Source of the DNA: Desulfocapsa sp.
GTDB taxonomy: Bacteria > Desulfobacterota > Desulfobulbia > Desulfobulbales > Desulfocapsaceae
DNA length: 42,650 nucleotides
Assembly: GCA_030145625.1 (NCBI GenBank)
Contig: JAQYVF010000037.1
Coordinates: 1 to 42,650 of the forward strand
Reading direction: 5' to 3'
Shown here: in pieces, positions 8,960 to 29,839 of the stretch
Position numbering within the stretch: the first letter of the stretch is position 1
Layout: each line of letters opens with the position of its first letter
Position numbers and translations under genes: made by a program
Notes under the pieces: model-generated
What the model was told of the DNA's origin: nothing
Databases searched by the model: none
Seen by the model: only the letters and a program-made list of their open reading frames with translations

Positions 8960-10000
8960 TTATTTTATGGCTTCGGCCAACTCGCTGACCGCCATGGCAT
9001 AGCGGTTGGAGTGGTTCCATTGGGTGATGGCCTGGAAATTGGGGTAACCGGCAACGAAGCGAATTCCTCCGCCTTTTGCAGGATCTTTTTCCAGGCTGAC
9101 AATGGTAAGTGGTGAGTTGTCAGGTGGCGTGGGGAGGGAGATACCCTGGATTTTCGCGACCTGTTGCCATTCCACCAGTCCCTTTCGTCCTTTAAGATTG
9201 GCACTGATCAGTTCCTGACCTTTAAGTTCTGAGCCGATATCAATATAGAGCGGTGCCGCAAGGACCCAGTGGTAACGATGGAGGTAATTGGCTATGGAGG
9301 CGAGAATATCCTCAATGGAGCCAAACACGTCGCGTCGTGAATCCCCGTCAAAACTCACCGCATATTCACGAAAACTGGAAGGAATAAACTGGGTCTGGCC
9401 AAAGGCACCAGCATAGGAACCGGTTATGACCAGCGGGTCGTAGCCATTTTCCCGGCAGAGGAGGAGGAAATGGAGCAGTTGCTTGCGGAAGAAGGCAGAG
9501 CGTCGAGGATAGGCGTCAAAAAGGGTATTTAAGGTCTGGAAAACTCCATAACCACCTTTATGGCTGCCGAAGCGGGATTCTATGCCCCAGATGGCAATGA
9601 CAACTTCCCGGTCAACGCCCAGTTCTTGCTCAATACGGTCAAGAATTTTTTTATGCTTCCGCAATTTCTTTTTGGCTTTTTTGATAACCGAGCGAGTGAT
9701 GAACAGGGGACGATATTGGAAGTATGGTTTTGCTTCCCACTGTTTGTCCATGAGAACGAGAACACGACGATTGATGGTGACGCCCTGAAAAAGGGCGCTC
9801 AGTTCTTTTCTACTGAAGCCGTGATCCTGTTCCAGTTCTTTGAAGAGAAGTTGGAATTTTTCCTGGTTCAGATCAATCTGCTGACCATCGACAACCAGGT
9901 CTGCAGCCGGAACTGTCTCTTCTCCAATTCCAGTTTGGGGCAGGAGAAGGAGAAATGTCAAAAGAAGAAGAGCTCTGAAAAGGTGTTGTGAAGAAAAAAT
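8960..10000 (-). CDS. mltB: Lytic murein transglycosylase B, probable ATT start
   Basis: Exported peptidoglycan lytic transglycosylase of the MltB family (SLT_2 domain). Visible are VVIAIWGIESRFG with the catalytic Glu, GGYGVFQTLNTLFD, GSYAGAFGQTQFIPSSF and DIWGSIEDIL-like DVFGSIEDILASIANYL. The frame is open from a TTG at 10045, which has no Shine-Dalgarno. A perfect AGGAGG (10008-10013) instead sits 7 bases before an in-frame ATT at 9998-10000, and starting there gives a textbook signal peptide (FSSQHLFRALLLLTFLLLLP) of 346 residues total. I therefore place the start at ATT, a rare codon limited by IF3. The protein lacks a lipobox, so it is soluble periplasmic rather than a lipoprotein like E. 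coli MltB. Confidence 0.85.
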   Translation of the reverse strand: MFSSQHLFRALLLLTFLLLLPQTGIGEETVPAADLVVDGQQIDLNQEKFQLLFKELEQDHGFSRKELSALFQGVTINRRVLVLMDKQWEAKPYFQYRPLFITRSVIKKAKKKLRKHKKILDRIEQELGVDREVVIAIWGIESRFGSHKGGYGVFQTLNTLFDAYPRRSAFFRKQLLHFLLLCRENGYDPLVITGSYAGAFGQTQFIPSSFREYAVSFDGDSRRDVFGSIEDILASIANYLHRYHWVLAAPLYIDIGSELKGQELISANLKGRKGLVEWQQVAKIQGISLPTPPDNSPLTIVSLEKDPAKGGGIRFVAGYPNFQAITQWNHSNRYAMAVSELAEAIK

Positions 10001-16807: not shown

Positions 16808-16884
16808 GCGCCTGTAGCTCAGCTGGATAGAGCGCCGGACTACGAATCCGTAGGTCGCAGGTTCGAATCCTGCCAGGCGTACCA
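16808..16884 (+). tRNA. tRNA-Arg (anticodon ACG)
   Basis: A 77-base cloverleaf: acceptor GCGCCTG with CAGGCGT (one G-U end pair), D arm GCTC...GAGC, anticodon loop CTACGAA, T arm GCAGG-TTCGAAT-CCTGC, and encoded CCA. The ACG anticodon, read as ICG after A34 deamination, decodes CGU/CGC/CGA. It lies 38 bases after the RNase E/G stop. No integrase or repeated 3' end is nearby. Confidence 0.97.
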
Positions 16885-17296
16885 ATAATATCAGGGGGTT
16901 CAAACGGTGATTGTTGGTTTGTTTCCCTTTTGATCTTCTATGTTTTTGCCCTGATTTCATTTCTTTGTTGCTCATTACTTGTCTATAACTTAGTATTGCG
17001 ATGTGAGGTTTGTAAAAGGTTGTTGGGATTCTGTGTAGAATGTTCAACTTGGAATGATGAATAACATGTGACAGATATAGGAAAAACGGCAAATGTTTTT
17101 TTGCTCAACTCTTTTATATTGCCATAGTCGATTTATCTCTCAAAAACGTCGATATCTTGTTGCACCGTGTCCTTCGGCTTTCGAATTTCGGACAGGACGT
17201 AACAGTATCAATCCAGTTTTGGCAACAAAGCTGTTACCGGGTCTCACTTTTGATGATCCGGCTTATAACAAAGTGGTTCTTAAAAGAACCCAGTAC
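16885..17296 (+). other. Leader region between tRNA-Arg and the cold-shock gene
   Basis: About 400 bases with no credible gene. The 3' end holds a hairpin, GGTTCT-TAAA-AGAACC (17275-17290), ending six bases before the Shine-Dalgarno of the cold-shock gene. Cold-shock mRNAs commonly carry long temperature-sensitive leaders, so this stretch may be part of such a leader. I cannot place the promoter with confidence. Confidence 0.4.
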
Positions 17297-17312
17297 AAAG
17301 GAGTAGTACAAG

Positions 17313-17513
17313 ATGGCTGAAGGAACAGTTAAGTGGTTTAACGATGCAAAAGGTTTTGGTTTTATTGAGCAGGATGGTGGTAAAGATGTATTTGTTCATC
17401 ATTCCGCAATTCAAGACGAAGGATTCAAATCTTTGGATGAGGGCGGACGGGTAACTTTCGATGTTGTTGACGGCCCCAAAGGACCTGCTGCAGAAAATGT
17501 TGTCAAACAGTAG
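17313..17513 (+). CDS. Cold-shock protein (CspA family)
   Basis: A 66-residue single cold-shock domain, the nucleic-acid chaperone that melts RNA structure. It has the RNP1 motif [10 protein letters not shown] and RNP2 DVFVHHSAI, and the usual [14 protein letters not shown] opening and C-terminal GPAAENV. AAAGGAG stands 9 bases upstream of the ATG. It is monocistronic, between a long leader and a strong terminator. Whether it is cold-induced or constitutive cannot be read from the protein; the hairpin placed directly before the ribosome-binding site hints at post-transcriptional control. Confidence 0.96.
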
Positions 17514-17533
17514 TAACTGATATTGACCATTTA

Positions 17534-17568
17534 AAAGGCTCCGTATTGTAATACGGGGCCTTTTTTTT
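17534..17568 (+). terminator. Terminator after the cold-shock gene
   Basis: AAAGGCTCCGTATT pairs with AATACGGGGCCTTT over a 2-base turn (17534-17563) with one mismatch/wobble, followed by further T residues to 17568. It sits 20 bases past the csp stop. Confidence 0.9.
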
Positions 17569-17617
17569 GTTCTACTATTTTTTATATCGAACACGAATTC
17601 TTTATAAGGACAGTCCA

Positions 17618-17764
17618 TTGGCTAAAACAAACTATACATATGAGAAGCGCCAGAAAGAATTGGCCAAGAAAAAGAAGAAAGAAGAAAAAAAGCAGCGTAA
17701 ACTGGAAAAACAGCAGAGTCCTCTTGAACAAAAAGAGGATGTTTTGCTTCAGGTTGATGAATAA
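17618..17764 (+). CDS. Small highly basic protein, TTG start
   Basis: A 48-residue protein: (M)AKTNYTYEKRQKELAKKKKK then EEKKQRKLEKQQ and an acidic tail. I recall very similar short Lys/Glu-rich proteins with the same opening in many deltaproteobacteria; no function is known to me. AAGGA (17606-17610) lies 7 bases before TTG 17618, which replaces the usual first Met codon; longer readings to 17567 run back into the preceding terminator and are unlikely. The whole middle is likely one charged helix. It may bind RNA or ribosomes, a guess from composition and from its place after the cold-shock gene. Confidence 0.75.
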   Translation: MAKTNYTYEKRQKELAKKKKKEEKKQRKLEKQQSPLEQKEDVLLQVDE

Positions 17765-18130
17765 CTCACTGTTCTGTTCTTCTTAAGTAGAAAAAAACTC
17801 TGTGTACGGGAACCTCCTGAAACAATTTGAGTGATACGGGTGGGACTGAGATGAGCGCGTGTTGCTCTCTTCCGAGGTAAGAGGATTCTCTGACAGGGCA
17901 TGGGTAGCAAGTTGTTTTCCTGTTGAAGGAGTTCCTCTCTTTTCCCGGCATATTTGTACGAAGAAATTTCGCATTATGTTGTCATCGCAGCTGTAAAATT
18001 TTGTCGGTAGCAGCTACCGGCCTGGTTTTTGACCATGACCGGAAGCTGTTTTTTGACCCTGCGATGATATGTTTCGCAGCTCCTGTCTCTGCTATTTCAT
18101 TTCTTTGTCTTTTCCAGCCTGTCTCGATTT
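17765..18130. other. Non-coding region downstream of the C69 peptidase gene
   Basis: A 366-base convergent gap. No frame looks like a gene. It contains an inverted repeat CGGTAGC-A-GCTACCG (18005-18019) and a repeated GTTTTTGACC / GTTTTTTGACC nearby. Either could serve as a weak terminator for the minus-strand peptidase gene, but there is no clean U-run on that strand. Confidence 0.35.
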
Positions 18131-19885
18131 TTACTCTCCCCCGGTCACCTTTGTCTCCGCTTTTGTCGGTTTTGCATAACTGGTTGGTCCTTTTGGCCAG
18201 TTTGACTGCTGGTACCATTCTTTCGGATAACCAACTTCCTGAGCCATCTTTCCCGGCTCATTCACGTAGCCGTCGTCATAGCGGGCCACTAGGTCCCAGG
18301 CCAGACTCCACCAGATCTTGACTACCTGGTTTGCCTGATTCTTGGAAAAGGCGGTGAGCAGTTCCCGCGCCTTTTCCGGGTCTTTTTGATAGAGTGCCAG
18401 GGCTTCCTTATCCATGGCCTTGACGCTTTCAAATGCGGCCTGTTCGATCTCGACCTGTTTGGCCTGGATGTCTTTCAGCATGTAATTGTATTTGAGGCCA
18501 GCCCAGTTGGCCACAAAGTTGAAGGCCCACCAGGCACTGTCCTGGCTGAATTTCGTGGTGTCGCAGGTGTAGTAGGGCTTGGCAATGGAGGTGGCTCCCA
18601 CATAAAAGGGGACATAGCAGGTGGTCATGGGCTCGTCGGGACCGAACCAGACTATGCCGCCGATGGGAGCGGGCAGCCAGTCCCGTGCCTGGCACACATA
18701 ACTGAAGCCGCAGCGGTAGATGGAGATGGGACGTTCCCAGGCGCCCTTCAGTTTGGCATCTGGGTTGCCGGTATCTCCCCCTGCATCCTCGGGGCCCGGA
18801 TAGCGGTAGGGGAGGCCAAAGGGGCCGGCAGTGACGCCTTTGGAGAGATCAAATTCTGTTCCCTGATAATAGTCGCGATAGAGGTCCATTACATCGGCAA
18901 CTTCAAGTTTATTGTCCGGTTTGAGAAAAAGAGGAAACTTTGTGCTGTAGCCGTCTGTTACCCATGGCGTTTTTTCCTGGGACGGGGCAATGCGCTGCTG
19001 CAGGCGCCATACCCGGCGGAGCGAGTAGTAGGGATGGCTGTACTCACCCTGGCTTACGGTCTTCAGCCAATCCAGCTTGCCGTCAGCCGGATTCCACCAC
19101 TTATGTTTTTGGGCAATATCATGGAGATCTTTGTTGAAAAGGGTGTCAGGATCATCGGGATTGATTTCGCGGATGCGCAGCTCGTTGGCAGCCACAAAGA
19201 TCTCTCCGTCAGGGACCTTTTGGGCAACCCAGAGTCCCCCTTTTCCCTCAGGACTTGGTGCCATTTCTATGATCCAGCCTTCCTTGGTATCTCCGATGGG
19301 CAGGGTTTCACCCGTACCGTAGTAGCCGTAGGTCTCAATGAGGTGACCAATCAGTTCCACTGCTTCACGTGCAGTCTTGCAGCGTTCAGCAGCGATACGG
19401 CTGAGTTCTGCGCTGTAGAAGATGAGCTTTCCAGGAACAGGATCCGGCTGGATTTTGGTGCCGTCAGTACATTCACCGAACATGAGCTGATGCTCGTTCA
19501 TGATGGCATAACTTCCTTCATAATAGGCATAGGTGTGGGCCACTTGCGGGATGTAGCCCAAAGGAATGGACTGGGGCTGCTCCGGGTCCACATAGATGGG
19601 CCCACGGTCGGTGCCCACGTAACGGCGAAGCAGATAGCTGTGATACTCGGGCTTGTCTCCCAGGGATGAGGCATCGTAGTAGACCGGACGCATGGTCCCA
19701 GGCGCATGGTCTGCAGCAGGAACATAGGCCAGACGCTGGTCAAAGAGTTCAGAATCGTCGGAATGGGCAACAATGACGGAACCGTCTGCGGAGGCGCCCT
19801 TTGTTATGAGCATGGTGGTACAGCTCATGGCAGGATGGGCCTGCAGCGTGACTAGCAGCAGGGGAATACTCAGTTTTTTCAGCAT
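18131..19885 (-). CDS. Exported C69 family dipeptidase
   Basis: A 584-residue peptidase of family C69 (PepD/U34-like), an Ntn hydrolase usually acting on dipeptides. The N-terminus is a signal peptide (MLKKLSIPLLLVTLQAHPAM) directly followed by Ser21-Cys22, then TTMLITKGASADGSV. Removal of the signal after Ser21 would expose Cys22 as the N-terminal nucleophile, so export and activation are one step. No lipobox Leu is at -3. Other family features: IVAHSDDSE, QLMFGECTD, IETYGYYGTGETLPIGD. AAGGGAG precedes the ATG. It starts 77 bases after the acyl-CoA ligase gene on the same strand and may be the last gene of that cluster, or independent. Confidence 0.9.
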   Translation of the reverse strand: MLKKLSIPLLLVTLQAHPAMSCTTMLITKGASADGSVIVAHSDDSELFDQRLAYVPAADHAPGTMRPVYYDASSLGDKPEYHSYLLRRYVGTDRGPIYVDPEQPQSIPLGYIPQVAHTYAYYEGSYAIMNEHQLMFGECTDGTKIQPDPVPGKLIFYSAELSRIAAERCKTAREAVELIGHLIETYGYYGTGETLPIGDTKEGWIIEMAPSPEGKGGLWVAQKVPDGEIFVAANELRIREINPDDPDTLFNKDLHDIAQKHKWWNPADGKLDWLKTVSQGEYSHPYYSLRRVWRLQQRIAPSQEKTPWVTDGYSTKFPLFLKPDNKLEVADVMDLYRDYYQGTEFDLSKGVTAGPFGLPYRYPGPEDAGGDTGNPDAKLKGAWERPISIYRCGFSYVCQARDWLPAPIGGIVWFGPDEPMTTCYVPFYVGATSIAKPYYTCDTTKFSQDSAWWAFNFVANWAGLKYNYMLKDIQAKQVEIEQAAFESVKAMDKEALALYQKDPEKARELLTAFSKNQANQVVKIWWSLAWDLVARYDDGYVNEPGKMAQEVGYPKEWYQQSNWPKGPTSYAKPTKAETKVTGGE

Positions 19886-19962
19886 CTCTCTTCTCCCTTT
19901 TATATTGTACTTTCTTCTTATAATGCTAGGGGGTAAGCAACTTGATTATCCCCATTTTAATA

Positions 19963-21513
19963 TTACTTTTTTTGTCTGCCCTGCCATATTTTGCAGGCAA
20001 GTTCCTGTAACGTGTTACGGTCGATTTTTTCCAGTAGTCCCTTGACCTGAAAATCATCGATGACATGGTAATACTGGGGAATTTTACGGGCAGCCAGCTG
20101 ACCGGCGAGAAAGGTGTCGAGCTCTTTTTTACCCGGTGGTGCAGTTTGACTCAGGGGTTGGATAAAGGCAAAAACTGCCTGTTCATAGATCGGGTCCGGA
20201 ACGCCGAGCACAATGGACTGACGAACGTCAGGGTGCCTTCCCAGGGCGTCTTCCACCTCTTCCGGGCTGATATTGCCACTGTCACGGACGATGGTATTTT
20301 TGCAGCGACCCATGAAAAAGAAATAGCCATCTTCATCCTGCCTGGCAAGATCTCCGGTAATGAACCAGCCATCCTCAAAGGCCGCAGCTGTGGATTCTGG
20401 GTCCTGCCAGTATTCTTTCATGACAGAGGGGCTCTTGACCAGCATCTGCCCGGTGTCACCTGCAGCAACATCCTGGTATTTGTCGTCAACCAGACGGACC
20501 ATGGTGTCATAGGCGGGTCTTCCCAGTGTCCCCCTTCGTTGTTCGTCGTCAGGGGGGACGGTCATATAGCCGCCGCATTCGGTCATGCCCATGGAGGCTG
20601 TGAGTTCCACTCCTGTTGCTGTGAAAAAGTCGTTCTGTAGGCTCAACGGCACGGCTGAGCCGCCGGAGGTGGCATAGATCAGGGAAGGGAAATCAACTTT
20701 CTCCCCCAGTACGAGATCGGTCAGTTCCCGCCACTGGCTGGGTGAGGCTGCTGCATGGCTTATGTGGTCATTTTTGAGTGTATCGAGAAAATTCCTGGCG
20801 CTAAAATGAGCCATGAACACTGCAGTGCCTCCTGCCAGGAGCATGGGAAGAAGGAGAATGGTGGGGGCGGCGCAGTGGCAGAGGTAGGAAGTGGTCAAAA
20901 ATAGGTGGTCGGGGCTATGGTTTAACGTACTGCAGCGGTTGACGGCTGCGTGGAAGAGTGAGCCGTGTGTGTGGGTAACGCCCTTGGGCCGTCCGGTGGA
21001 GCCGGAGGTGTAAAAGATGGCTGCAGGATCATTGTCCAGGGGCTGAATCTTCGGGAGCGTGATCTCTTTGGCTGTTACGACAAGCTCTTCCCAAGAGTCA
21101 TCAATGGAATCGCCATTGGGGCCATGGTTGAGATAGAAGATTTTTTCCAGTGATTCAGCTTCACGGTCAATCTCTTTAATCTCTCCTTCCATGCTGCGGT
21201 GAGCAATATAAATTCTGGTCCCGCATAAGCCAATCTCGTAGAGCAGTTCCTTGCGCTGACTGTAAAAGCTTGACGGTACGGCAATGACACCGAGCTTAAA
21301 ACAGGCGAAATAGCAGAAGACGATTTCCAGACAGTTGGGCATAAAGAGTCCCACCCGGTCTCCCTGTTTAACACCCAGTTTCACCAGGGCCCGGGCAAAT
21401 TCCTGGACTCTCCTGTCCAGTTCCCGGTAGGTGCAGGATTGGGCGTCGATAAGAAGAGCCTTGCTCTCAGGCGTCTGCTCTAATGCTTGCCTGTATAGTC
21501 TGTTAAGAGTCAT
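19963..21513 (-). CDS. AMP-forming acyl-CoA synthetase/ligase
   Basis: A 516-residue ANL-superfamily enzyme that activates a carboxylic acid through an acyl-adenylate and transfers it to CoA. It shows the P-loop FYTSGSTGRPKG (about residues 167-178), ASMGMTECGGYM, the GWFITGDLARQDEDGYFFF hinge region, GRCKNTIV and a C-terminal Lys about residue 496 (LLEKIDRNTL) in the catalytic position, although the usual PKTxSGK context is changed. Closest in feel to medium-chain or aromatic acid CoA ligases; the substrate is unknown. Its ATG lies inside the last codons of the carboxyltransferase gene (11-base overlap, AAGGA within that gene), so the two are translated together. Confidence 0.9.
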   Translation of the reverse strand: MTLNRLYRQALEQTPESKALLIDAQSCTYRELDRRVQEFARALVKLGVKQGDRVGLFMPNCLEIVFCYFACFKLGVIAVPSSFYSQRKELLYEIGLCGTRIYIAHRSMEGEIKEIDREAESLEKIFYLNHGPNGDSIDDSWEELVVTAKEITLPKIQPLDNDPAAIFYTSGSTGRPKGVTHTHGSLFHAAVNRCSTLNHSPDHLFLTTSYLCHCAAPTILLLPMLLAGGTAVFMAHFSARNFLDTLKNDHISHAAASPSQWRELTDLVLGEKVDFPSLIYATSGGSAVPLSLQNDFFTATGVELTASMGMTECGGYMTVPPDDEQRRGTLGRPAYDTMVRLVDDKYQDVAAGDTGQMLVKSPSVMKEYWQDPESTAAAFEDGWFITGDLARQDEDGYFFFMGRCKNTIVRDSGNISPEEVEDALGRHPDVRQSIVLGVPDPIYEQAVFAFIQPLSQTAPPGKKELDTFLAGQLAARKIPQYYHVIDDFQVKGLLEKIDRNTLQELACKIWQGRQKK

Positions 21514-22888
21514 GTTCTTTCCTTACTGTTGTGGCCGGGGAGAGAAAGCGGGCAATGCGGTCACGCATCTCCTCTGCCTGAATGATCTCATCTATTAATC
21601 CCGATTCGAGCAGTTTGCGCGGTTCAGCTGCTGCCTCTTCCATGGCCCTGCGGTTTTCCCGATCTTTACTCTGCCTGCTGCGGTTACCCAGCTTTGCGGC
21701 AACGTTCTTCCCGTAGATGGAGATAACGGCTCCGGGTAGGGCCAGGAATTCTTCAGGCCCCATGCCGGGTCCTGCCATGGCATAGACACCGGCCGTGTAA
21801 TTGCGGCGCAGGGTTATGGAGAGCTTTCGGCTGGTGGCGCGGCCAATGGCCTTGAACAGTTCTGCCCCGTGCCGGATCATTCCTGCCTGTTCTGAAGCTG
21901 TACCCACCATGAATCCGGGGATATCTGCAAGAAAGACCAGGGGCAGGGAAAAATTGTCGCAAAGGGTGATGAAGCGGCTCATCTTCCAGCAGGTATCAGG
22001 GAGGAGGATACCGCTGTGGACCTTGGAATTACTGGCGACAAGGCCAAAGCTGCGTCCTTCAATTCTCGCAAGCCCTGTCACGATTTCTCCTGCGTATTCT
22101 TTTTTGATTTCCAGAAAGGAGTCCCGGTCCAGGAGCTTGTTTAAGAGGGGATGGATGTCAAAAGGAATAGCTGCACCTTTCGGCAGTAGTGAGGCAATGG
22201 ACTTTCCATCTTTTTGTGCAGGGACAGGGGCATGCTCCGGGAGTGGGGCTCCGGCCCGGGAGGGAAAATGGCCCAGGTAGTGGCGGACCCAACCCATGGC
22301 AGCCTGTTCATCTTTTGCCACCTTATCCACGGCCCCGGATATCCTGGCGTGCATCTCAGGGCTTCCCAGGCTGAGGTAGTCCACGGGATGGCCCAGCATG
22401 TCTTCCACCACGTCTGGCCTGCCGATACTCATCCCGGCATCTTCCAGCATAACGACGCTGTCGCAGAGGGCCACGGGAAAGGTCATGGAGGCGCCGAGTC
22501 TGGCACAGACCACACAGACCTGGGGGACCAGACCGGAAAGTTGCGCGTGCAGGCTGTACCAGTGGCCGATGCCTTTTCTGTGGGCCAGGAGTTTGGCTGC
22601 ATCCTGGGGAAAAGGGCTTTTACCCAGGTGTTGGTGGGCCATGATGTCAAGGATCATGACAACGGGACGTGGCCTCTCCAGGGCTTGTTCCAGCAAAGCA
22701 AAGTGGTGCTGCAATCCGTCAAAGGGACTGTCCGGCAGGTCCAGGTGGTCCACTGCCGAGATGTAGACCTCTCTGCCATTAATCAGTCCGCTTCCGGTGA
22801 CAAAACCAGTGGCCTGGCCCGTATCAAAGTGGTTGAAACTGTCGGGGTCAACCAGGGTCTCAATGCGCCTCCATACACTTCGTTTCAT
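21503..22888 (-). CDS. Acyl-CoA carboxylase carboxyltransferase subunit (divergent)
   Basis: A 461-residue two-domain crotonase-fold carboxyltransferase like PccB/AccD5, which moves CO2 from carboxybiotin to an acyl-CoA. Seen: RRIETLVDPDSFNHFD, a first oxyanion region CARLGASMTFPVALCD, and the second IPGFMVGTASEQAGMIRHGA with RRNYTAGVYAMAGPG. Compared with PccB (GGAVYSPA, GGAYDVM) both glycine-rich loops are altered, and the Asp in the second loop that governs acyl preference in PccB is Ala. It is shorter than the usual 510-530 residues. ATG 22888 has GTGAG 7 bases upstream; an in-frame TTG at 22936 lacks a ribosome site. Biotin donors AccB/AccC are encoded at the head of the cluster. The substrate is unknown. 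Confidence 0.85.
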   Translation of the reverse strand: MKRSVWRRIETLVDPDSFNHFDTGQATGFVTGSGLINGREVYISAVDHLDLPDSPFDGLQHHFALLEQALERPRPVVMILDIMAHQHLGKSPFPQDAAKLLAHRKGIGHWYSLHAQLSGLVPQVCVVCARLGASMTFPVALCDSVVMLEDAGMSIGRPDVVEDMLGHPVDYLSLGSPEMHARISGAVDKVAKDEQAAMGWVRHYLGHFPSRAGAPLPEHAPVPAQKDGKSIASLLPKGAAIPFDIHPLLNKLLDRDSFLEIKKEYAGEIVTGLARIEGRSFGLVASNSKVHSGILLPDTCWKMSRFITLCDNFSLPLVFLADIPGFMVGTASEQAGMIRHGAELFKAIGRATSRKLSITLRRNYTAGVYAMAGPGMGPEEFLALPGAVISIYGKNVAAKLGNRSRQSKDRENRRAMEEAAAEPRKLLESGLIDEIIQAEEMRDRIARFLSPATTVRKEHDS

Positions 22889-22946
22889 CTCAGTTCTCAC
22901 TCTAGGGTATCTTGAAAAAATAGAATTTTCGTTCAAAATCGAGGCG

Positions 22947-23003
22947 TGAGAAAAATTTTACCGCAGGCATATATTTGATATTCCGAGGATAAAGTTTTTC
23001 TCA
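22947..23003 (-). repeat. Long inverted repeat inside the carboxylase cluster
   Basis: TGAGAAAAATTTTA (22947-22960) and TAAAGTTTTTCTCA (22990-23003) are complementary at 13 of 14 positions over a 29-base loop. It fills the only sizeable gap between the ATPase/GNAT gene and the carboxyltransferase gene. It could be an mRNA processing or stabilising structure, or a partial terminator that sets expression of the two halves of the cluster. Confidence 0.5.
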
Positions 23004-23046
23004 TAACGAAGAGTTTGGGCGAAAAGGCAATTTTGCAAGGTGGCCT

Positions 23047-24525
23047 CTATCCGTTGGGGTCATATTGTTTGATATAGTTTTTCAGTCTCACTGCTGCCGG
23101 GTCATAGAGTTGGATAGCGTCATAATCCAGGGACAGATTGTTGCGATACTGCAGGATCAGACTGTGCTGGCCGCGCAGGCCAAACGGCAGTACCCCGGAA
23201 AAAAAGAATCCCATTTCCTCACAGAGCTCGGCAAGTTGGGCAGCGCCGCTTTTTTCAAGGTTGATGAAGAGGTAGAGGATGTCCACGTGTTCCATGCAGT
23301 ACTTGTGGAGCAGGGTGTGGATTTCGGAAGCCATGGCGGGCGTTGCGGAGAAACAGAGGATGTCAACACTGTTGAAGACTTCCATCTTGCTTGTTTCCAT
23401 GGAGAACTCATTGTCTCCCTCTTCACTGTCCGGAGTTGCCGGCTGGTGGGAGATTGGACAGTTCAGCGGGGCAAAGATCTCCTCAATGATCTCTTTATGT
23501 CTTTTGGGCGGGTAAATGCATCTTGCTTCGTTGTTGTTCAGGCTGGCATAGAAGAGTAAGGCACTCTCTTTCTGGCTGATCCTGCCACCCAGGTCTTTGA
23601 AGTCGACATCTGAGGGAAAGAGTCCTAAGAAAAGGCCTGTGGGGTGTGAACCGGTGTCCATACACTTCTTCTGGGACAGGGTGTGACTGGTTACGGCGCG
23701 GCCATAGATTCCGAAGAGTCCGGACTCGTGACTCTCACTATAGATTTGATTGGCCAGGGCGGAGAAAACACCATGCCTGCGGCAGATGGGTTTGACAAAG
23801 GCCACCCCGATCTCGGCAATGGGGTCTTCGGGGTGATAAAATTTTAAAGCCGTGTGACCCAGAAGTTGTCCTCTTTCATCTTCTGCCACCAGGGAATGGA
23901 GTGTGCCTTCCCTGTTCATACGAATGATCATGTCCGGATAATAGATATAGGGCTCGTAGGTGTAGCCATAGGTCTGCCAGGCGCAGCGTGAAATTTCCAG
24001 GGCATCTGGCTCCCGGAACTCACGAATATGCCAGGGGCCGAAGGGTGCGGGATCGGTTTCCGTTCCTTCCTCTTCGTTGTCAAGGAGGGCATCGATGCGT
24101 TTGTGCGCCAGGTGTTTGATGAGTACGGTTTCCTTGCCCTCCCTGCCCAGGTTGAGGAATTTGACCTCATCAACAGCATGACGGAGCAGATACATGCCCA
24201 GTCCCCGGGTGTCGCCTGTTGTTTCTACTTCCTGTGGATGATACTCATGGGTAAGCTCTGCCTGAAAGGGAATGCCTTTTTCATGGATTACCACTTCAAC
24301 ACTTGCAGGCAGGCCCCGGCAGCTGAGGCTGTAGTGTTCGTTAATATCATTAGAAAGGCCATGGCTGATCACATTACTCACCGACTCTTCAGTGGCCAGG
24401 ACCAGCCGCTCGGCGTCCTTTTTCGGGAGATTGAAGGCCAGGGAGGCTTCTCGGACAAAGGCCAGAACAGTTGTCAGGAAGTTGAGACTGGCGGGTACGG
24501 TGATGCTCAGTTCAATTGCTTTCAT
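23047..24525 (-). CDS. RsbW-like ATPase fused to GNAT acyltransferase
   Basis: A 492-residue fusion. Residues 1-140 are a HATPase_c domain of the anti-sigma kinase type, with N-box ATEESVSNVISHG (Asn51) and GLGMYLLRHAVDEV; the Asp of the G1 box is Glu82 (HEKG), so ATP handling may differ. Residues 162-345 form a GNAT acetyltransferase with the acyl-CoA loop CRRHGVFSAL. Residues about 385-485 resemble a second, degenerate GNAT half (AQLAELCEEMGFFFSGVLP). Such fusions exist in other anaerobes, but I know no established role. It overlaps the MFS gene end by 14 bases, with AAGGAGG inside that gene. Next to acyl-CoA enzymes, it could sense acyl-CoA and control a partner-switch, or acylate lysines; both are inference. 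Confidence 0.82.
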   Translation of the reverse strand: MKAIELSITVPASLNFLTTVLAFVREASLAFNLPKKDAERLVLATEESVSNVISHGLSNDINEHYSLSCRGLPASVEVVIHEKGIPFQAELTHEYHPQEVETTGDTRGLGMYLLRHAVDEVKFLNLGREGKETVLIKHLAHKRIDALLDNEEEGTETDPAPFGPWHIREFREPDALEISRCAWQTYGYTYEPYIYYPDMIIRMNREGTLHSLVAEDERGQLLGHTALKFYHPEDPIAEIGVAFVKPICRRHGVFSALANQIYSESHESGLFGIYGRAVTSHTLSQKKCMDTGSHPTGLFLGLFPSDVDFKDLGGRISQKESALLFYASLNNNEARCIYPPKRHKEIIEEIFAPLNCPISHQPATPDSEEGDNEFSMETSKMEVFNSVDILCFSATPAMASEIHTLLHKYCMEHVDILYLFINLEKSGAAQLAELCEEMGFFFSGVLPFGLRGQHSLILQYRNNLSLDYDAIQLYDPAAVRLKNYIKQYDPNG

Positions 24526-25921
24526 GATCCTCCTTGTTCAAGCACCAGACTCGCCAGCTGAAAAAGAGAGCCAGCAGGGGGAGCAGGGCAGCGGCCAGAT
24601 ATGTTTGTTGAAAAGAACTGATCTCCACAACCTTACTGTTGCTGCCAAGTAACAGGTCAAAGAGGCTGACGCCGATGAGGGATGCCAGGTAAATACTGGT
24701 ACGGAACAAGGCAGATACCGAGGCTACGTTCTTCCTGGATGCCCTGCCCATGACCAGTTTGGTGGCAGGTGCGATGAAAGAACCAAAGGCAAAGCCCATG
24801 CTCATGAGAAAGAGTGCGGTTAAGGCTGTGGAGGTCCGATCCAGGAAAAAGCTGAAGAGAAGGCAGGAAAGAAAACCCCAGCCCATCCCGGACATACAGA
24901 GCAGGGACGGGTTGAAGCGGTCCGCCCTGCGGCCCATATAGAGACTGAGGAGACCGTAGGTACAGGAAAAAAAGAGCATGAGAAGACCGCTTTCCGATGG
25001 AGAGAGCTGGAGTTCTGTTGCCAGATAGAATGGCATGGCAAAGTTGTTGCCACTGAGCACCATCAGGACAGCGGTGTAGGCAAGGGTCATCAGGAGAAAG
25101 GTCTTGTCCCCCAGTGCATCAAGGGGCAGAAGTGGCCAGCGGCTCCTTCTCTCCCAGAGCCAAAGTACAGCAAGGAGTGCCACTCCTGCCAGGGGCATGA
25201 GCCAGTGGGAGGTGGCATCCCAGTTGCCCTGGGTCCCGCTGTTGATGCCGCCGACCAGCAGGAGGAGGCCACTGATCAGCATCAGGGCTCCGGGAAAATC
25301 GAATTTTTCTTCATTTTTCTTTTCCGGCAGTGGATCAGACGGCAGGACCCTGGCGGCCAGCAGGCAGGCAGCTGTGCCGATGGGGATATTGACCAGAAAA
25401 ATATACTGCCAGCCCAGATGACCGCTGATGATGCCGCCCAGAGGGGCGCCGATGATCAGTCCCAGGGAGGAGGCGCTGCCCTGGATGCCGTAAGCTGAAC
25501 CCTGCCTGCTCGCAGGGATGTCCCGTGCGATAAAGGCTGGGCCGCTGACGATGAGCATCGCTGCCCCCAGGCCCTGCAGGCCGCGACCAACAGTGAGCCA
25601 GAAAAGGGAAGGGGCAAAGCCGCAGAGGGTAGAGCTTATGGTGAAAATGAGGTAGCCGCTGAGAAAGATGCGTTTCAGTCCGATCCGGTCGGCGAGTTTT
25701 CCCCAGATCGAGAGGCCTGAGGTGAGGACCAGGAGAAAGGCGAGATTGATGCGGACAACCTCACCGGCAGTCACCCCAAAGTGGCGACTGATCTCAGGCA
25801 GGGAGATGTTGACGATATAGGAGTCCAGGAGACACATGAAAGAGGCCAGACTGACACTGATCACGATCTGGCGTTGAGCAGATGTCAGGGGCGGGCTGTC
25901 AGATGTGTTCCGCTTCATCAT
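24512..25921 (-). CDS. MFS transporter, DHA2 (EmrB/QacA) family
   Basis: A 469-residue proton-driven exporter of the 14-helix DHA2 family. The first helix carries SFMCLLDSYIVNISLP, the conserved family D-motif; loop 2-3 has GKLADRIGLKRIF (motif A); helix 5 has GPAFIARDIP...GSAYGIQGSASSLGLIIGAPLGG (motif C, given here in part). Such pumps export drugs, organic acids or metabolites. It begins 10 bases after accC, without a distinct Shine-Dalgarno, and overlaps the ATPase/GNAT gene downstream. Its position between the biotin proteins and the carboxyltransferase suggests it moves the acid made or used by the cluster. Confidence 0.92.
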   Translation of the reverse strand: MMKRNTSDSPPLTSAQRQIVISVSLASFMCLLDSYIVNISLPEISRHFGVTAGEVVRINLAFLLVLTSGLSIWGKLADRIGLKRIFLSGYLIFTISSTLCGFAPSLFWLTVGRGLQGLGAAMLIVSGPAFIARDIPASRQGSAYGIQGSASSLGLIIGAPLGGIISGHLGWQYIFLVNIPIGTAACLLAARVLPSDPLPEKKNEEKFDFPGALMLISGLLLLVGGINSGTQGNWDATSHWLMPLAGVALLAVLWLWERRSRWPLLPLDALGDKTFLLMTLAYTAVLMVLSGNNFAMPFYLATELQLSPSESGLLMLFFSCTYGLLSLYMGRRADRFNPSLLCMSGMGWGFLSCLLFSFFLDRTSTALTALFLMSMGFAFGSFIAPATKLVMGRASRKNVASVSALFRTSIYLASLIGVSLFDLLLGSNSKVVEISSFQQTYLAAALLPLLALFFSWRVWCLNKEDHESN

Positions 25922-25931
25922 GTTTGCAGTT

Positions 25932-27272
25932 TCATAGCTTCAGCATCTGTTCCAGGTAATGAATATCCATTCCCCCCTCCAGGTAGCCCGGGTCGCTGAG
26001 AATGCGTTGCTGCAGGGGGATATTGGTCTTGATCCCCTCAATTTTCATCTCCTGCAGTGCCGTTTTCATCCTGGCGAGACTCCTATCCCGGTCATGGCCA
26101 TAGGCGATTACCTTGGCAACCAGGGAGTCATACTGGGGAGGAACCAGGCAGTCATTGTCCAGGTAGCTGTCCACACGAATTCCGGGGCCGCCGGGGCTGT
26201 GAAAACGGTTGACCCTGCCCGGGCTCGGGAAAAAAGTATCCGGGTCTTCCGCATTGATACGGCATTCGATGGCATGGCCCTGCTGCTGGATCATAGATTG
26301 ATCCAGGGTGAGGAGAGAGCCGGAAGCAATGAGCAACTGCCAGCGGACAAGGTCTACTCCGGTGACAAATTCGGTGACCGGATGTTCCACCTGCAGACGT
26401 GTGTTCATCTCGATGAAGTGAAATTCGTTGTTCTCATAGAGGAATTCAAATGTTCCTGCACCCCTGTAGCCGATACGGATACAGGCCTCGGCTACAATTG
26501 TACCCATTTCCCGTTTTTGTTCTTCAGGTAAATGCGGTGCCGGTGACTCTTCCACCATTTTCTGATTACGGCGCTGCATGGAACAGTCCCGCTCACCCAG
26601 GTGGATGGCATGCCCCTGTCCGTCGCCGAGAACCTGGTACTCGATGTGACGGGGGTGCTGCAGATACTTTTCCATGTACAGGGTGTCGTCACCAAAGGCC
26701 AGTTTTGCCTCCTTGCGGGTAAGGTTGATTGCTTCCTGCAATTCCTCCGGGCGATAGACGACACGCATGCCGCGGCCACCACCGCCAAGAGCAGCCTTGA
26801 TGATCACAGGATAACCGAGGCGGGCAGCAATGGTTGTGGTCTCTTTTGCGGAGTTCGGCAGAGCCCCGCCTGAATCGGGAATGCAGGGGACACCTGCTTC
26901 TTGCATGGCCTTTTTGGCGGAGATTTTGTCACCCATGAGGCGAATTGTTTCCGCTCGCGGTCCGATAAATGTCAATCCTGCTTCTTCTATCCGGGCGGCG
27001 AAGGCAGCATTTTCCGAGAGGAAACCGTAACCGGGGTGAATGGCCTCTGCTCCGGTGATAGAGGCGGCAGAGAGGAGGGCTGTCATGTTGAGATAGCTTT
27101 TGTCTGCCGGAGAAGGACCGATGCAAACGGTCTGGTCAGCTAAGGCCAGATAGGGTTGGTCACGGTCTGCCTCGGAGTAGACGGCCACCGTGGCAATACC
27201 CAGTTCTTTGCAGGCCCGAAGGATGCGGAGGGCGATCTCTCCCCGGTTGGCAATCAGCACCTTGGAGAGCAT
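25932..27272 (-). CDS. accC: Acetyl/acyl-CoA carboxylase biotin carboxylase subunit
   Basis: ATP-dependent carboxylation of the biotin of AccB. The 446-residue ATP-grasp enzyme opens [20 protein letters not shown] and shows [14 protein letters not shown], the Gly-rich [12 protein letters not shown] loop, [12 protein letters not shown] (with Glu for ATP/Mg) and [14 protein letters not shown]. Its length and lack of a biotinyl domain mark it as a free AccC rather than a propionyl-CoA carboxylase alpha chain. AAGGAG lies inside the end of accB, three codons before, so the pair is coupled. It may serve both fatty-acid synthesis and the carboxyltransferase downstream. No accA or accD is in the window. 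Confidence 0.96.
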
Positions 27273-27275
27273 GGC

Positions 27276-27698
27276 TTACTCCTTAATGACAAAAAGGGGC
27301 TGTCCGAACTCCACAGCCTGGCCGGAGTTGACGAGGATTTTCTCGATCACTCCGTCTCTGTCCGCCTCCACCATGTTCAACATCTTCATGGCCTCGATGA
27401 TGCAGAGGGGAACACCTTTTTTGACCTGCTGTCCTTCTTCTACAAAGGGCGCTTCTTCTTCGGAAGAGGCACGATAAAAGGAGCCCACCATAGGAGATCG
27501 AAATAGATTTTCCGGATCCTGTTCGCTTTTCTGTATCTTTCGGGGTACACTTTGGGAGGCTGCCACTGGGGGAGGAGGGACCGCACCTTGTGTTGCCCGG
27601 CTGATACGGATAGTTCTGCCCTCTTCGATGATCTCAATTTCCGTCACCGTTGATTCGTCAACTAAGCGGATTAAACGTTCAACAACATCAATATCCAT
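27276..27698 (-). CDS. accB: Biotin carboxyl carrier protein
   Basis: A 140-residue BCCP. The N-terminal helix IDVVERLIRLVDESTVTEI and IRISR are as in housekeeping AccB, followed by a Pro/Ala/Ser linker (VPPPPVAASQSV) and a biotinyl domain PMVGSFYRA...IEAMKMLNMVEA with the biotin-accepting Lys in EAMKM and a thumb-like VPLC region. I chose ATG 27698 (MDIDVV) with AGGG about 10 bases upstream; the open frame continues 26 codons further but has no family-like sequence. It heads the seven-gene minus-strand cluster and has a plausible promoter about 55 bases upstream. Confidence 0.95.
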   Translation of the reverse strand: MDIDVVERLIRLVDESTVTEIEIIEEGRTIRISRATQGAVPPPPVAASQSVPRKIQKSEQDPENLFRSPMVGSFYRASSEEEAPFVEEGQQVKKGVPLCIIEAMKMLNMVEADRDGVIEKILVNSGQAVEFGQPLFVIKE

Positions 27699-27759
27699 GA
27701 CTTTTTTTCCCTGTCTAGTGAATGGCAGATAGGTGTTAAGGCAAGTTGTATTAAAGAAT

Positions 27760-27789
27760 GGTATACTAGACAGCAAACATTGTACAATG
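27760..27789 (-). promoter_or_regulatory. Promoter of accB with an overlapping 12-base palindrome
   Basis: On the minus strand TTGTAC (27782-27787) and TATACC (27760-27765) are 16 bases apart. The -35 box lies within a perfect palindrome CATTGTACAATG (27778-27789), as an operator for a dimeric repressor would be. I do not recognise the palindrome as a known fatty-acid or biotin regulator site. Confidence 0.5.
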
Positions 27790-27887
27790 GACTTTTGTTT
27801 GAGGTCCTCTTTTTTTTGATGAAAAAAAAGCAGGATGGAATATACGTATACAAAACTGGTGCCTCATTCCTCAAAATCATCAAAACT

Positions 27888-27963
27888 TTGGGGTCTTGGG
27901 TGGAATTAAGGTGAGAATAAGCTTGCAGAGATCTCTGATACCTGCTACAACCCCAACTTTTTT
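27888..27963 (+). promoter_or_regulatory. Terminator-like leader element upstream of the DEAD-box gene
   Basis: TTGGGGT (27888-27894) pairs with ACCCCAA (27950-27956), followed by six T residues (27958-27963). The 55-base loop contains a perfect 12-base palindrome CAGAGATCTCTG (27926-27937) and GCAG/CTGC arms. The shape is that of a large terminator or attenuator ahead of the plus-strand helicase gene. The rest of the 27790-28105 gap holds no gene that I can support. Confidence 0.4.
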
Positions 27964-28105
27964 CTCTTCCAGGTTTGTCGCGCTTTAAAAGGGATGTCTT
28001 TTTGTGCAGCAAAGGGGATGTCCCTTCCTGTTGATTTTGTATTTTTCTTCATTGCAAGCGCTATATGGCTCTTTGTTGTGAGTCTCAATTTACCCGGTGA
28101 TCACC

Positions 28106-29839
28106 ATGTCAACCTCCCAAGACTTATCAGACTTTTCCGACCTCTCTTTGCCCCAGCCGCTCATGAAGGCAATCAAAGACCTGGGGTATGAAACACCTTC
28201 TCCTATTCAGGCAAAAATGATTCCCCTGGTTATGGAGGGGCGCGATGTCCTAGGCCAGGCCCAGACCGGTACCGGAAAAACTGCGGCCTTTGCTTTGCCC
28301 CTTATCGCCCGTCTGAATATGAAGCAGCGTCTGGTTCAGAATCTTGTCCTGGCTCCGACCAGGGAGCTGGCCATTCAGGTCGCCGAATCATTCCAGCAAT
28401 ATGCCAAGTATGTGAAGGGATTTCATGTGGTGCCCCTTTTTGGCGGCCAGGATGTGAAGATTCAACTCCGTCTGCTGCAGAAGCCTGTACAGGTGGTGGT
28501 GGGTACTCCGGGCCGGGTTATGGACCATATGCGTCGGGGAACGTTAAAGCTTGAAAACCTGCAGTGTCTGGTCCTTGATGAGGCTGATGAAATGCTGCGC
28601 ATGGGGTTTATTGATGATGTGGAGTGGATACTCTCAAAAACTCCTGAAAGCCGACAAGTAGCACTATTTTCTGCTACCATGCCGTCGACCATCCGTCGTA
28701 TAGCCCGCAAGTATCTAAATAAGCCGGAAGAAATTCAGATTAAGTCCAAAACCGCCACGGCAACCACCGTTCACCAACGCTATTTCTTGACCAACCATCA
28801 TCAGAAAGTAGAGGCGCTGGGCAGGATACTGGAGGCGGAAACCTTTGACGGGGTACTGGTATTTGTGCGCACTAAGGTCGATACCCAGCAGGTTGCTGAA
28901 AAACTTGCCGCCCGTGGTTTCTCAACGGCATTTCTGAATGGCGATATTGTCCAGAGTCAGCGTCTGCGCACGGTTGAGACTTTTAAAAAAGGGAATATTG
29001 ACATCCTGGTGGCAACCGATGTGGCTGCCCGCGGCCTGGATGTGGAGCGGATTAGCCATGTAATTAATTATGATATTCCCTACGATACCGAGGCCTATGT
29101 CCATCGCATCGGACGGACGGGCAGGGCTGGTCGTAAGGGTGAGGCCATTTTGTTTATTACCCCCCGGGAAAGAAGGATGCTCAGCACCATTGAAAGGGGA
29201 ATCAGTAAGAAAATTAAGGAGATGAAACTGCCTTCCACTGCAGTGATCAACGATAAACGCCTGGCTGCCTTTAAGGAACGGATCAGCTCCACCATGACCA
29301 CTCAGGATCTTAGTTTTTTTTCCACCCTGGTGAATGAGTACAGGGACGAAAATGACTTGGATTTTCGAGAGATTGCAGCGGCTCTGGCCTGCATGGTTCA
29401 GGGGGATGCCCCTCTTCTCCTGCCGGACGAGCCAATCAAGGGCTTTAAAAAGAAAGCGACGCAAGCCGTTGGCGTACCCAATGAGAAAATGCGGACCACT
29501 GAGACCCGGTCCGGTATGGAGCGTTATCGGATTGAAATCGGTAAAGATCATGAGGTCAAACCAGCCAACATTGTCGGTGCCATAGCCGGAGAGGCTGATC
29601 TTGATGGATCGTATATAGGTTCCATCTCCATATTTGACGGATATTCCACTGTGGATCTGCCGGAAGGTATGCCGAAGGAGATATTAGACCTTCTTCAGAA
29701 CGTCCAGATTATGGGCCGTTCTTTGCGACCTTCCCTTGTTGGGCCGGGAGAAATGAGAGCTGTGCCCAGAGGGAAAAGATCAAAGAGAGGGGGCAAAGGG
29801 AGAATGGGGAAAAAGCCAATAATACGAAAGCGCAGATAA
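28106..29839 (+). CDS. DEAD-box RNA helicase (DeaD/CsdA type)
   Basis: A 577-residue ATP-dependent RNA helicase. All motifs are present: Q (YETPSPIQAKMIP), I (AQTGTGKT), Ia (PTRELA), Ib (TPGR), II (DEAD), III (SAT), V (ARGLD) and VI (HRIGRTGR). After a linker with a dimerisation-like helical region comes a DbpA-type RNA-binding domain (YRIEIGKDHEVKPANIVGAI) and a very basic tail (RGKRSKRGGKGRMGKK). That layout is the DeaD/CsdA cold-shock and ribosome-assembly type. ATG 28106 is preceded by GGTGATCACC (28096-28105), a perfect palindrome that includes the ribosome site; GTG 28097 is an alternative. It stands alone, downstream of an unusual leader. Confidence 0.94.
   Translation: MSTSQDLSDFSDLSLPQPLMKAIKDLGYETPSPIQAKMIPLVMEGRDVLGQAQTGTGKTAAFALPLIARLNMKQRLVQNLVLAPTRELAIQVAESFQQYAKYVKGFHVVPLFGGQDVKIQLRLLQKPVQVVVGTPGRVMDHMRRGTLKLENLQCLVLDEADEMLRMGFIDDVEWILSKTPESRQVALFSATMPSTIRRIARKYLNKPEEIQIKSKTATATTVHQRYFLTNHHQKVEALGRILEAETFDGVLVFVRTKVDTQQVAEKLAARGFSTAFLNGDIVQSQRLRTVETFKKGNIDILVATDVAARGLDVERISHVINYDIPYDTEAYVHRIGRTGRAGRKGEAILFITPRERRMLSTIERGISKKIKEMKLPSTAVINDKRLAAFKERISSTMTTQDLSFFSTLVNEYRDENDLDFREIAAALACMVQGDAPLLLPDEPIKGFKKKATQAVGVPNEKMRTTETRSGMERYRIEIGKDHEVKPANIVGAIAGEADLDGSYIGSISIFDGYSTVDLPEGMPKEILDLLQNVQIMGRSLRPSLVGPGEMRAVPRGKRSKRGGKGRMGKKPIIRKRR

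Follow-up and report, generated by a model that had tools for sequence, protein, structure and literature searches.

The sequence analyzed here, referred to as the window, is the whole 42,650-nucleotide stretch at positions 1-42,650 of contig JAQYVF010000037.1 from Desulfocapsa sp. (GCA_030145625.1), in forward-strand numbering, and the system under study is a six-gene block that combines genes for a predicted acyl-CoA carboxylase, a transporter and an acyl-CoA ligase with a gene for an RsbW-like HATPase-GNAT fusion protein. Together with an adjoining gene for an apparently exported C69-family dipeptidase, these are the seven open reading frames (ORFs) of the original prediction. Their coordinates agreed with the ORF list of the window, where all seven lie on the minus strand, and the families claimed agreed with Pfam and NCBIfam matches to Biotin_lipoyl/BCCP, biotin carboxylase, MFS (DHA2-like), HATPase_c_2 plus Acetyltransf_1, Carboxyl_trans, AMP-binding and Peptidase_C69 (Table 1). 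The overlaps or short gaps expected at nearly every junction were found between accB and accC (gap of 3 bases), accC and the MFS gene (gap of 10), the MFS and HATPase-GNAT genes (overlap of 14), the carboxyltransferase and ligase genes (overlap of 11) and the ligase and C69 genes (gap of 77), but not between the HATPase-GNAT and carboxyltransferase genes, which are separated by 110 bases holding a repeat.

Table 1. Features of the locus, in coordinates of the window, with the matches that identify them.
Feature	Coordinates	Strand	Evidence
accB, biotin carboxyl carrier protein, 140 aa	27276..27698	-	TIGR00531 136.1 bits (cut-off 115.2); biotin motif EAMKM
accC, biotin carboxylase, 446 aa	25932..27272	-	TIGR00514 676.8 bits (cut-off 626.5)
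MFS transporter, DHA2-like, 469 aa	24512..25921	-	MFS_1 181.2 bits; 13 hydrophobic peaks
RsbW-like HATPase-GNAT fusion, 492 aa	23047..24525	-	PF13581 57.7 bits and PF00583 22.9 bits, both above cut-off
Dispersed repeat between the HATPase-GNAT and carboxyltransferase genes	22919..23049		95% copy elsewhere in the same genome
Carboxyltransferase, divergent	21503..22900	-	PF01039 272.7 bits
AMP-forming acyl-CoA ligase, 516 aa	19963..21513	-	AMP-binding 249.3 bits; AMP-binding_C 39.2 bits
Six-gene block, extent	19924..27872		Comparison with the block-free site in G303
C69-family dipeptidase, outside the block	18131..19885	-	PF03577 208.1 bits; NCBIfam equivalog 201.7 bits (below its cut-off of 250)

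Six of the seven genes, from accB to the ligase gene, form a real, dedicated and sporadic unit. They occur in the same order in a second member of the genus, G298, on the contig JAHJNL010000010.1 of a metagenome-assembled genome (L007, taken to be the same contig as G298:C64 and from one genome with L072), and the arrangement is therefore not due to chance. Identity over aligned codons between the window and L007 was 0.84 for accB, 0.89 for accC, 0.87 for the MFS gene, 0.84 for the HATPase-GNAT gene, 0.86 for the carboxyltransferase gene, 0.83 for the ligase gene and 0.93 for the C69 gene. The ratio of nonsynonymous to synonymous substitution (dN/dS) ranged from 0.11 to 0.17 for the six genes, which argues that the block was kept under purifying selection in both lineages, and from 0.05 to 0.09 for the C69 gene and two flanking genes; synonymous divergence was similar between the six genes (0.42-0.87) and the two flanking genes (0.72 and 0.79). 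The co-directional unit proposed for acid activation, carboxylation and transport around a switch-like protein is thus maintained beyond a single genome. The synteny put forward as its check extends to G298 but is narrow, the full set being present in 2 of 20 genus members (the window genome and G298), with only pieces farther out, namely a HATPase-GNAT, ThiF-like and carboxyltransferase gene set in G168 and a carboxyltransferase gene at a contig end in G347.

The limits of the unit were given by G303, of the same genus, in which the C69 gene (92%) adjoins the helicase gene (90%) with the six genes absent between them. Specifically, window positions 19923 and 27873 corresponded in blastn/tblastn comparisons to positions 9888 and 9128 of L090 (G303), 760 bases apart, and no match to the cassette was found in L090 by the same searches. 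The unit therefore runs from accB to the ligase gene, and the C69 peptidase gene, predicted as a seventh member, is ruled out by its presence at this block-free site. A C69 gene was also present in G311 (76%; genome 88% complete), where the carboxyltransferase search found none, and the outgroup G308 retained the flanks with both the C69 gene and the block absent and, in our reading of the sequence, an apparent ABC-type ATPase gene at the corresponding locus. The block was thus either horizontally acquired or sporadically lost; gain and loss in G303 look alike because a three-gene tree left the branching of the window, G298 and G303 unsettled (support 34.5/56). Integration next to a tRNA gene was considered and rejected, as tRNA-Arg (16808-16884) sits beyond the C69 gene, away from the block edge. 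Composition was not diagnostic of foreign origin either, with GC content at third codon positions of 0.53-0.69 for the six genes, 0.63 for the C69 gene and 0.47-0.64 for ten other genes of the window.

The biotin carboxylase (PF00289/PF02786/PF02785), the carrier (PF00364, with the motif EAMKM) and the carboxyltransferase (PF01039) are encoded together, as in acyl-CoA carboxylases, and we predict that accB, accC and the carboxyltransferase gene specify a dedicated enzyme of this kind. Of 52 related genomes, two had an AccC orthologue at E<=1e-150, namely the window genome and G298, both of which carry the block, and G303 (listed as 100% complete) contained only more distant biotin carboxylases, sharing 43, 42 and 35% identity (E<=1e-40). 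AccB and AccC thus did not show the conservation across the lineage that would mark a housekeeping acetyl-CoA carboxylase (AccABCD). The window genome has two other biotin carboxylases, one on contig C4 (L041:2611-6311), whose neighbor is a 757-aa protein matching ACCA and Carboxyl_trans, and one on contig C114, adjoining a PYC_OADA/Biotin_lipoyl protein; a methylmalonyl-CoA decarboxylase-type set that includes OAD_beta lies on contig C59. Since the AccC orthologue is limited to block-bearing genomes and a separate ACCA-type enzyme has its own biotin carboxylase, accBC is not a housekeeping pair joined to odd genes; by the same token, the case named as refuting the unit, in which accBC would serve only an AccAD elsewhere, is unlikely.

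The carboxyltransferase clade, like the GNAT family below, was searched for in one phylum, in plasmids and in a single scan of genome contigs. The carboxyltransferase was recovered at E<=1e-80 in 2 of 56 genomes and in 2 of the 16 genomes in the family of G168, and at E<=1e-90 in 2 of 297 phylum genomes, its homologues being those of L007 (86%), G168 (51%) and G347 (42%). With a four-row profile, five of 395 phylum genomes gave a match at E<=1e-75. Scores exceeded 800 bits for the window, G168 and G347, all three of which contributed sequences to the profile, and the next match reached 261 bits. In a 19-row midpoint-rooted tree the window clade, on a long branch, grouped with a Bacillus YngE-type protein (support 82/80) and then with a Haloarcula protein (100/99 for the six rows), and was separate from the rows of PCC/MmdA and MCC. 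A stretch of the window clade, YTAGVYAMAGPG, was similar to YGAGLYAMAGPA in the YngE-type row, and AMP-ligase genes lie near both the YngE-type and the haloarchaeal carboxyltransferase genes. The best PDB sequence match was PccB (3n6r, 188 bits), and enzymatic activity of the window protein is plausible from its sequence. The block resembles PCC, MCC and the actinobacterial AccD (single-chain beta subunit) in its PF01039 carboxyltransferase, biotin carboxylase and biotin carrier, and differs from them in having separate canonical AccB and AccC and in an Ala-Ser that replaces the Gly-Gly of most rows. Also close in make-up is the Bacillus operon of L078, whose genes we take to be yng genes, including yngE: it has an AMP-ligase, a biotin carboxylase and a carrier in common with the block, together with a carboxyltransferase that falls to the same side in the tree (37% identical to that of the window over 78% of the query) and additionally encodes an acyl-CoA dehydrogenase, an HMG-CoA lyase and an enoyl-CoA hydratase, whereas the block lacks these three catabolic enzymes and has the MFS and HATPase-GNAT genes added. 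The B. subtilis genes adjoining yngHB may encode a methylcrotonyl-CoA carboxylase of leucine degradation, according to one report (PMC4016012).

Of the remaining enzymes, the ligase retains the motif TSGSTGRPKG and a candidate lysine, K496, in the context GLLEKID, at positions that we take to be the A3 and A10 motifs, respectively. The best NCBIfam match of the MFS protein was efflux_EmrB (TIGR00711), at 215.3 bits just under the cut-off of 230.2.

The HATPase-GNAT fusion is the most unusual part of the block and merits experiment more than the carboxylase itself. Its HATPase domain (residues 10-137) is followed by a GNAT domain (about residues 183-268) and a conserved C-terminus with no Pfam match; hhalign of parts of the protein gave no indication of a second GNAT copy there beyond the shared overlap. 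A profile of 22 homologues matched RsbW and SpoIIAB structures (1e-21 and 2e-10; 80 bits for RsbW 6m36) and, weakly, GNAT structures (3.5e-4 and worse). The window protein has the ATP-site residues of an RsbW-like HATPase_c_2 domain (E47, N51, E82, G84, G108 and G110), although among the 22 proteins position 82 is Asp in 12, and G108 and G110 are retained in 15 and 14, respectively. Y195, R249 and Q285 are present in 22/22 and E238 in 21/22, so that the arginine and glutamate of the GNAT motif (R249 and E238) are conserved as in Pat/AcuA-type acetyltransferases. An AlphaFold2 model of the fusion built from two sequences was unusable (mean pLDDT 30.5). Matches to the fusion protein (E<=1e-10) occurred in 44 of 297 phylum genomes and, counted from match ranges, spanned both domains in 23; none was found on plasmids at 1e-5.

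Like the RsbW/SpoIIAB partner-switching kinases, the fusion has an HATPase_c_2 domain in which N-box and glycine-box residues are present; it differs from them in being fused to a GNAT. The operon in the window also lacks STAS, SpoIIE and sigma genes, whereas STAS genes are found in other clusters of the family and a STAS/HATPase/SpoIIE set flanks an unfused GNAT in L121. With Pat, AcuA and PatZ (GNAT types I-V) it shares a GNAT domain, a possibly regulatory N-terminal domain and a position beside an AMP-forming ligase, but the regulatory domains that the accessible part of a review of bacterial GNATs names as fused to them (cAMP, NADP, acyl-CoA synthetase-like and ACT) do not include an RsbW-like HATPase, nor are RsbW, anti-sigma factors or histidine kinases mentioned in that part (PMC8556138); an ACT-GNAT fusion is described in a further paper (PMC6434083). 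No description of the six-gene set, the fusion or the module was found among the titles and abstracts of the literature searched, which was largely without subscription papers and bioRxiv, and as far as these searches go the HATPase-GNAT component is undescribed. The block can be viewed as a variant of acyl-CoA carboxylase operons that combines a ligase and a carboxylase of known kinds with this HATPase-GNAT component.

Gene neighborhoods of the GNAT family were compared at 42 loci, counting the genome of L007 and L072 once, leaving out L039, L044, L045, L057, L062 and L072 (partial, near-duplicate or seed-source) and including L071, which has no GNAT; carboxyltransferases were unscored and genes exactly six places away uncounted. 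Scored families accounted for 86 of 380 genes within five places of the GNAT gene and for 4 of 143 at seven or more places; an earlier count, in which the genome of L007 and L072 entered twice, gave 31/160 within four places and 2/160 farther off. As seeds were drawn partly from the neighbors counted and genes were called with a crude longest-ORF method, these counts describe a trend and not a probability, and some genomes contributed two loci. Transporters, adenylating enzymes, Mo-hydroxylases or STAS/HATPase/SpoIIE genes lay nearby at 21 of the 42 loci, with an MFS or MATE transporter gene at most two genes away in 13, an adenylating enzyme within five places in 7 and a Mo-hydroxylase large subunit in 10. 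Near the fusions were LuxE/LuxC/PaaK-like sets (L059, L065 and L067), two GH3 genes, OlsH-like (below cut-off), and an MFS gene (L040), an AMP-binding/PP-binding/acyltransferase protein (L066) and STAS and HATPase genes (L050 and L052). The HATPase-free GNAT of L121 is accompanied by MoCoBD, Fer2_2 and FAD_binding_5 subunits, MATE, STAS, HATPase_c_2, NMT1 and Cache-HAMP-SpoIIE genes, and that of L115 by an aminotransferase, ACP and AMP-ligase in an operon-like set; both unfused GNATs gave no Pfam match at 0.001 and were assigned by similarity to the window family. The neighborhoods with ACP, ligase and aminotransferase favor a biosynthetic GNAT and those with STAS, HATPase and SpoIIE favor switch control, and the two may hold together. 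The L121 cluster (L121:1047-13390) also holds a 443-aa HATPase-GNAT-like protein and an aminotransferase, with similar sets in L120, L122 and L046; most genes of L121 were identified with Pfam and those of the other three labelled by similarity, and no sigma factor was seen among the examined genes of these clusters.

We tentatively propose, as a reading that falls a little short of probable, that the six-gene operon encodes a dedicated pathway of acid activation, carboxylation, GNAT-dependent acyl transfer and export. The AMP-forming ligase would convert a free acid into an acyl-CoA, which AccC, AccB and the YngE-side carboxyltransferase would carboxylate; the GNAT domain would probably acylate an amine from this CoA ester, either before or after its carboxylation, and export of the product would fall to the DHA2-like MFS protein, while the RsbW-like domain would set GNAT activity through the binding of ATP, a STAS partner or both. 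The proposal builds on the content, order and conservation of the genes, the dedication of accBC to the block and the conserved domain residues; the ligase and carboxylase chemistry is that expected from the families, and we infer co-transcription, product formation by the GNAT, the direction of export and the role of the HATPase domain. The block would accordingly carboxylate acids as a self-contained unit that brings its own carrier and carboxylase. Several observations weigh against this proposal. The six-gene set was found in just two genomes, both of one genus, and among same-order genomes a match to the fusion was present in only 1 of 11. The Gly-Gly of 12 of the 15 other tree rows, which we take to be the oxyanion-hole position, is Ala-Ser in the window carboxyltransferase and Ala-Ser, Ala-Ala or Ala-Thr in its clade, and the final residue of the GNAT CoA motif, presumably small as a rule, is Phe, Leu or Met in 18 of 22 proteins. 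Searches of G168 and G347 at E<=1e-40 gave no biotin carboxylase although both encode the carboxyltransferase, which incomplete assembly may explain, as their contigs begin at the cluster and the genomes are 92% and 78% complete, respectively; the HATPase-GNAT, ThiF-like and carboxyltransferase genes of G168 are, moreover, not followed by a ligase gene. Finally, 21 of the 42 GNAT-family loci, 11 of them with HATPase-GNAT fusions, had no scored neighbor family. In G168, the gene between the HATPase-GNAT and carboxyltransferase genes (L049:1761-2579) encodes a ThiF/E1-like adenylyltransferase, which the window block does not have.

The main rival, itself possible but on the unlikely side, holds that the HATPase-GNAT protein is purely regulatory in the manner of Pat/AcuA, acetylating the catalytic lysine of the ligase with the RsbW-like domain as a sensor or partner-switch arm, while the MFS protein moves the acid or product into or out of the cell. 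The retained candidate K496 and the adenylate-forming enzymes near fusions in several genomes are in its favor, but several HATPase-free GNAT relatives lie beside Mo-hydroxylases with no scored ligase, and the context of K496 differs from the proline/GK form found around Pat target lysines; we know of no control of LuxE or GH3 enzymes by GNAT acetylation. By analogy, the Pat/AcuA systems are a strong precedent, since AMP-forming acetyl-CoA synthetase is inactivated by acetylation of a conserved lysine (PMC8556138) and fused sensor domains are described on GNATs (there and in PMC6434083). It is rather improbable that the block is instead a catabolic carboxylase operon in the Bacillus yng manner, in which an imported acid is activated and carboxylated into central metabolism. 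The grouping of the carboxyltransferase with the YngE-type protein, and with the haloarchaeal one added, points that way, as do the joint ligase, biotin carboxylase, carrier and carboxyltransferase genes of L078 and a carboxylase, ligase and TRAP transporter set in Pseudosulfitobacter; yet the block includes no acyl-CoA dehydrogenase, enoyl-CoA hydratase or lyase, the transporter is closest to an efflux family and the HATPase-GNAT protein is left without a place. Nearly refuted is the view that accBC supplies the housekeeping carrier and carboxylase of fatty-acid synthesis beside accidental neighbors: AccB and AccC do exceed the NCBIfam acetyl-CoA carboxylase cut-offs, and no biotin-carrier domain was found in the ACCA-type carboxyltransferase of C4 or its adjoining biotin carboxylase, but no AccC orthologue was found at E<=1e-150 in 50 of the 52 genomes, G303 has only more distant biotin carboxylases, the C4 enzyme comes with its own biotin carboxylase and the gene order of the block is conserved.

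Beyond the pathway proposed for the block, the wider family could represent a recurrent partner-switching system with an acyltransferase output instead of a sigma factor, an idea we regard as doubtful but worth stating. A SpoIIE-type phosphatase and a STAS protein would act on an RsbW-like kinase controlling a GNAT of one family; the fusion would be one form of this system, in which a single polypeptide carries both kinase and GNAT, as it does in the window. The module would be coupled to varied enzymes (Mo-hydroxylase, LuxC/LuxE/PaaK, GH3, ligase plus ACP or, in the window, a dedicated acyl-CoA carboxylase) and often accompanied by a transporter, so that acylated small molecules would be made and exported in response to a signal. 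If partner switching does directly control a metabolic acyltransferase, the logic of RsbW/SpoIIAB would apply to metabolism as well as to transcription, and uncharacterized gene clusters of this set would have an explanation in common.

Closer examination of the junctions and gene starts showed that the gap between the HATPase-GNAT and carboxyltransferase genes is filled by the dispersed repeat of about 131 bases, whose copy in the same genome lies at L041:12900-13028 and of which weaker copies occur in two other genomes (77.5% at L059:16733-16861 and 72% at L093:146-256); in L007, which has no copy, the two genes overlap by 4 bases. The carboxyltransferase ORF is readable from TTG 22936, within the repeat, and GTG 22900, inferred from L007, is its likely start. 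Similarly, the accB ORF is readable from TTG 27776, but the orthologue of L007/L072 begins at the position of ATG 27698, which is the likelier start on this comparison. Judged by eye, the repeat copy in L093 is apparently framed by an inverted repeat, CTAGGAGGCTGTCCGA / TCGGACAGCCTCCTAG, in the manner of a miniature transposon. Promoter-like sites (9 vs 8.1 in shuffles) and terminator-like sites (20 vs 12.6) in 17000-28300 were not used as evidence. Outside the block, a match to the cspA thermoregulator (Rfam RF01766, 96.4 bits) was observed on the plus strand at 17117-17565, over a minus-strand ORF at 17280-17618.

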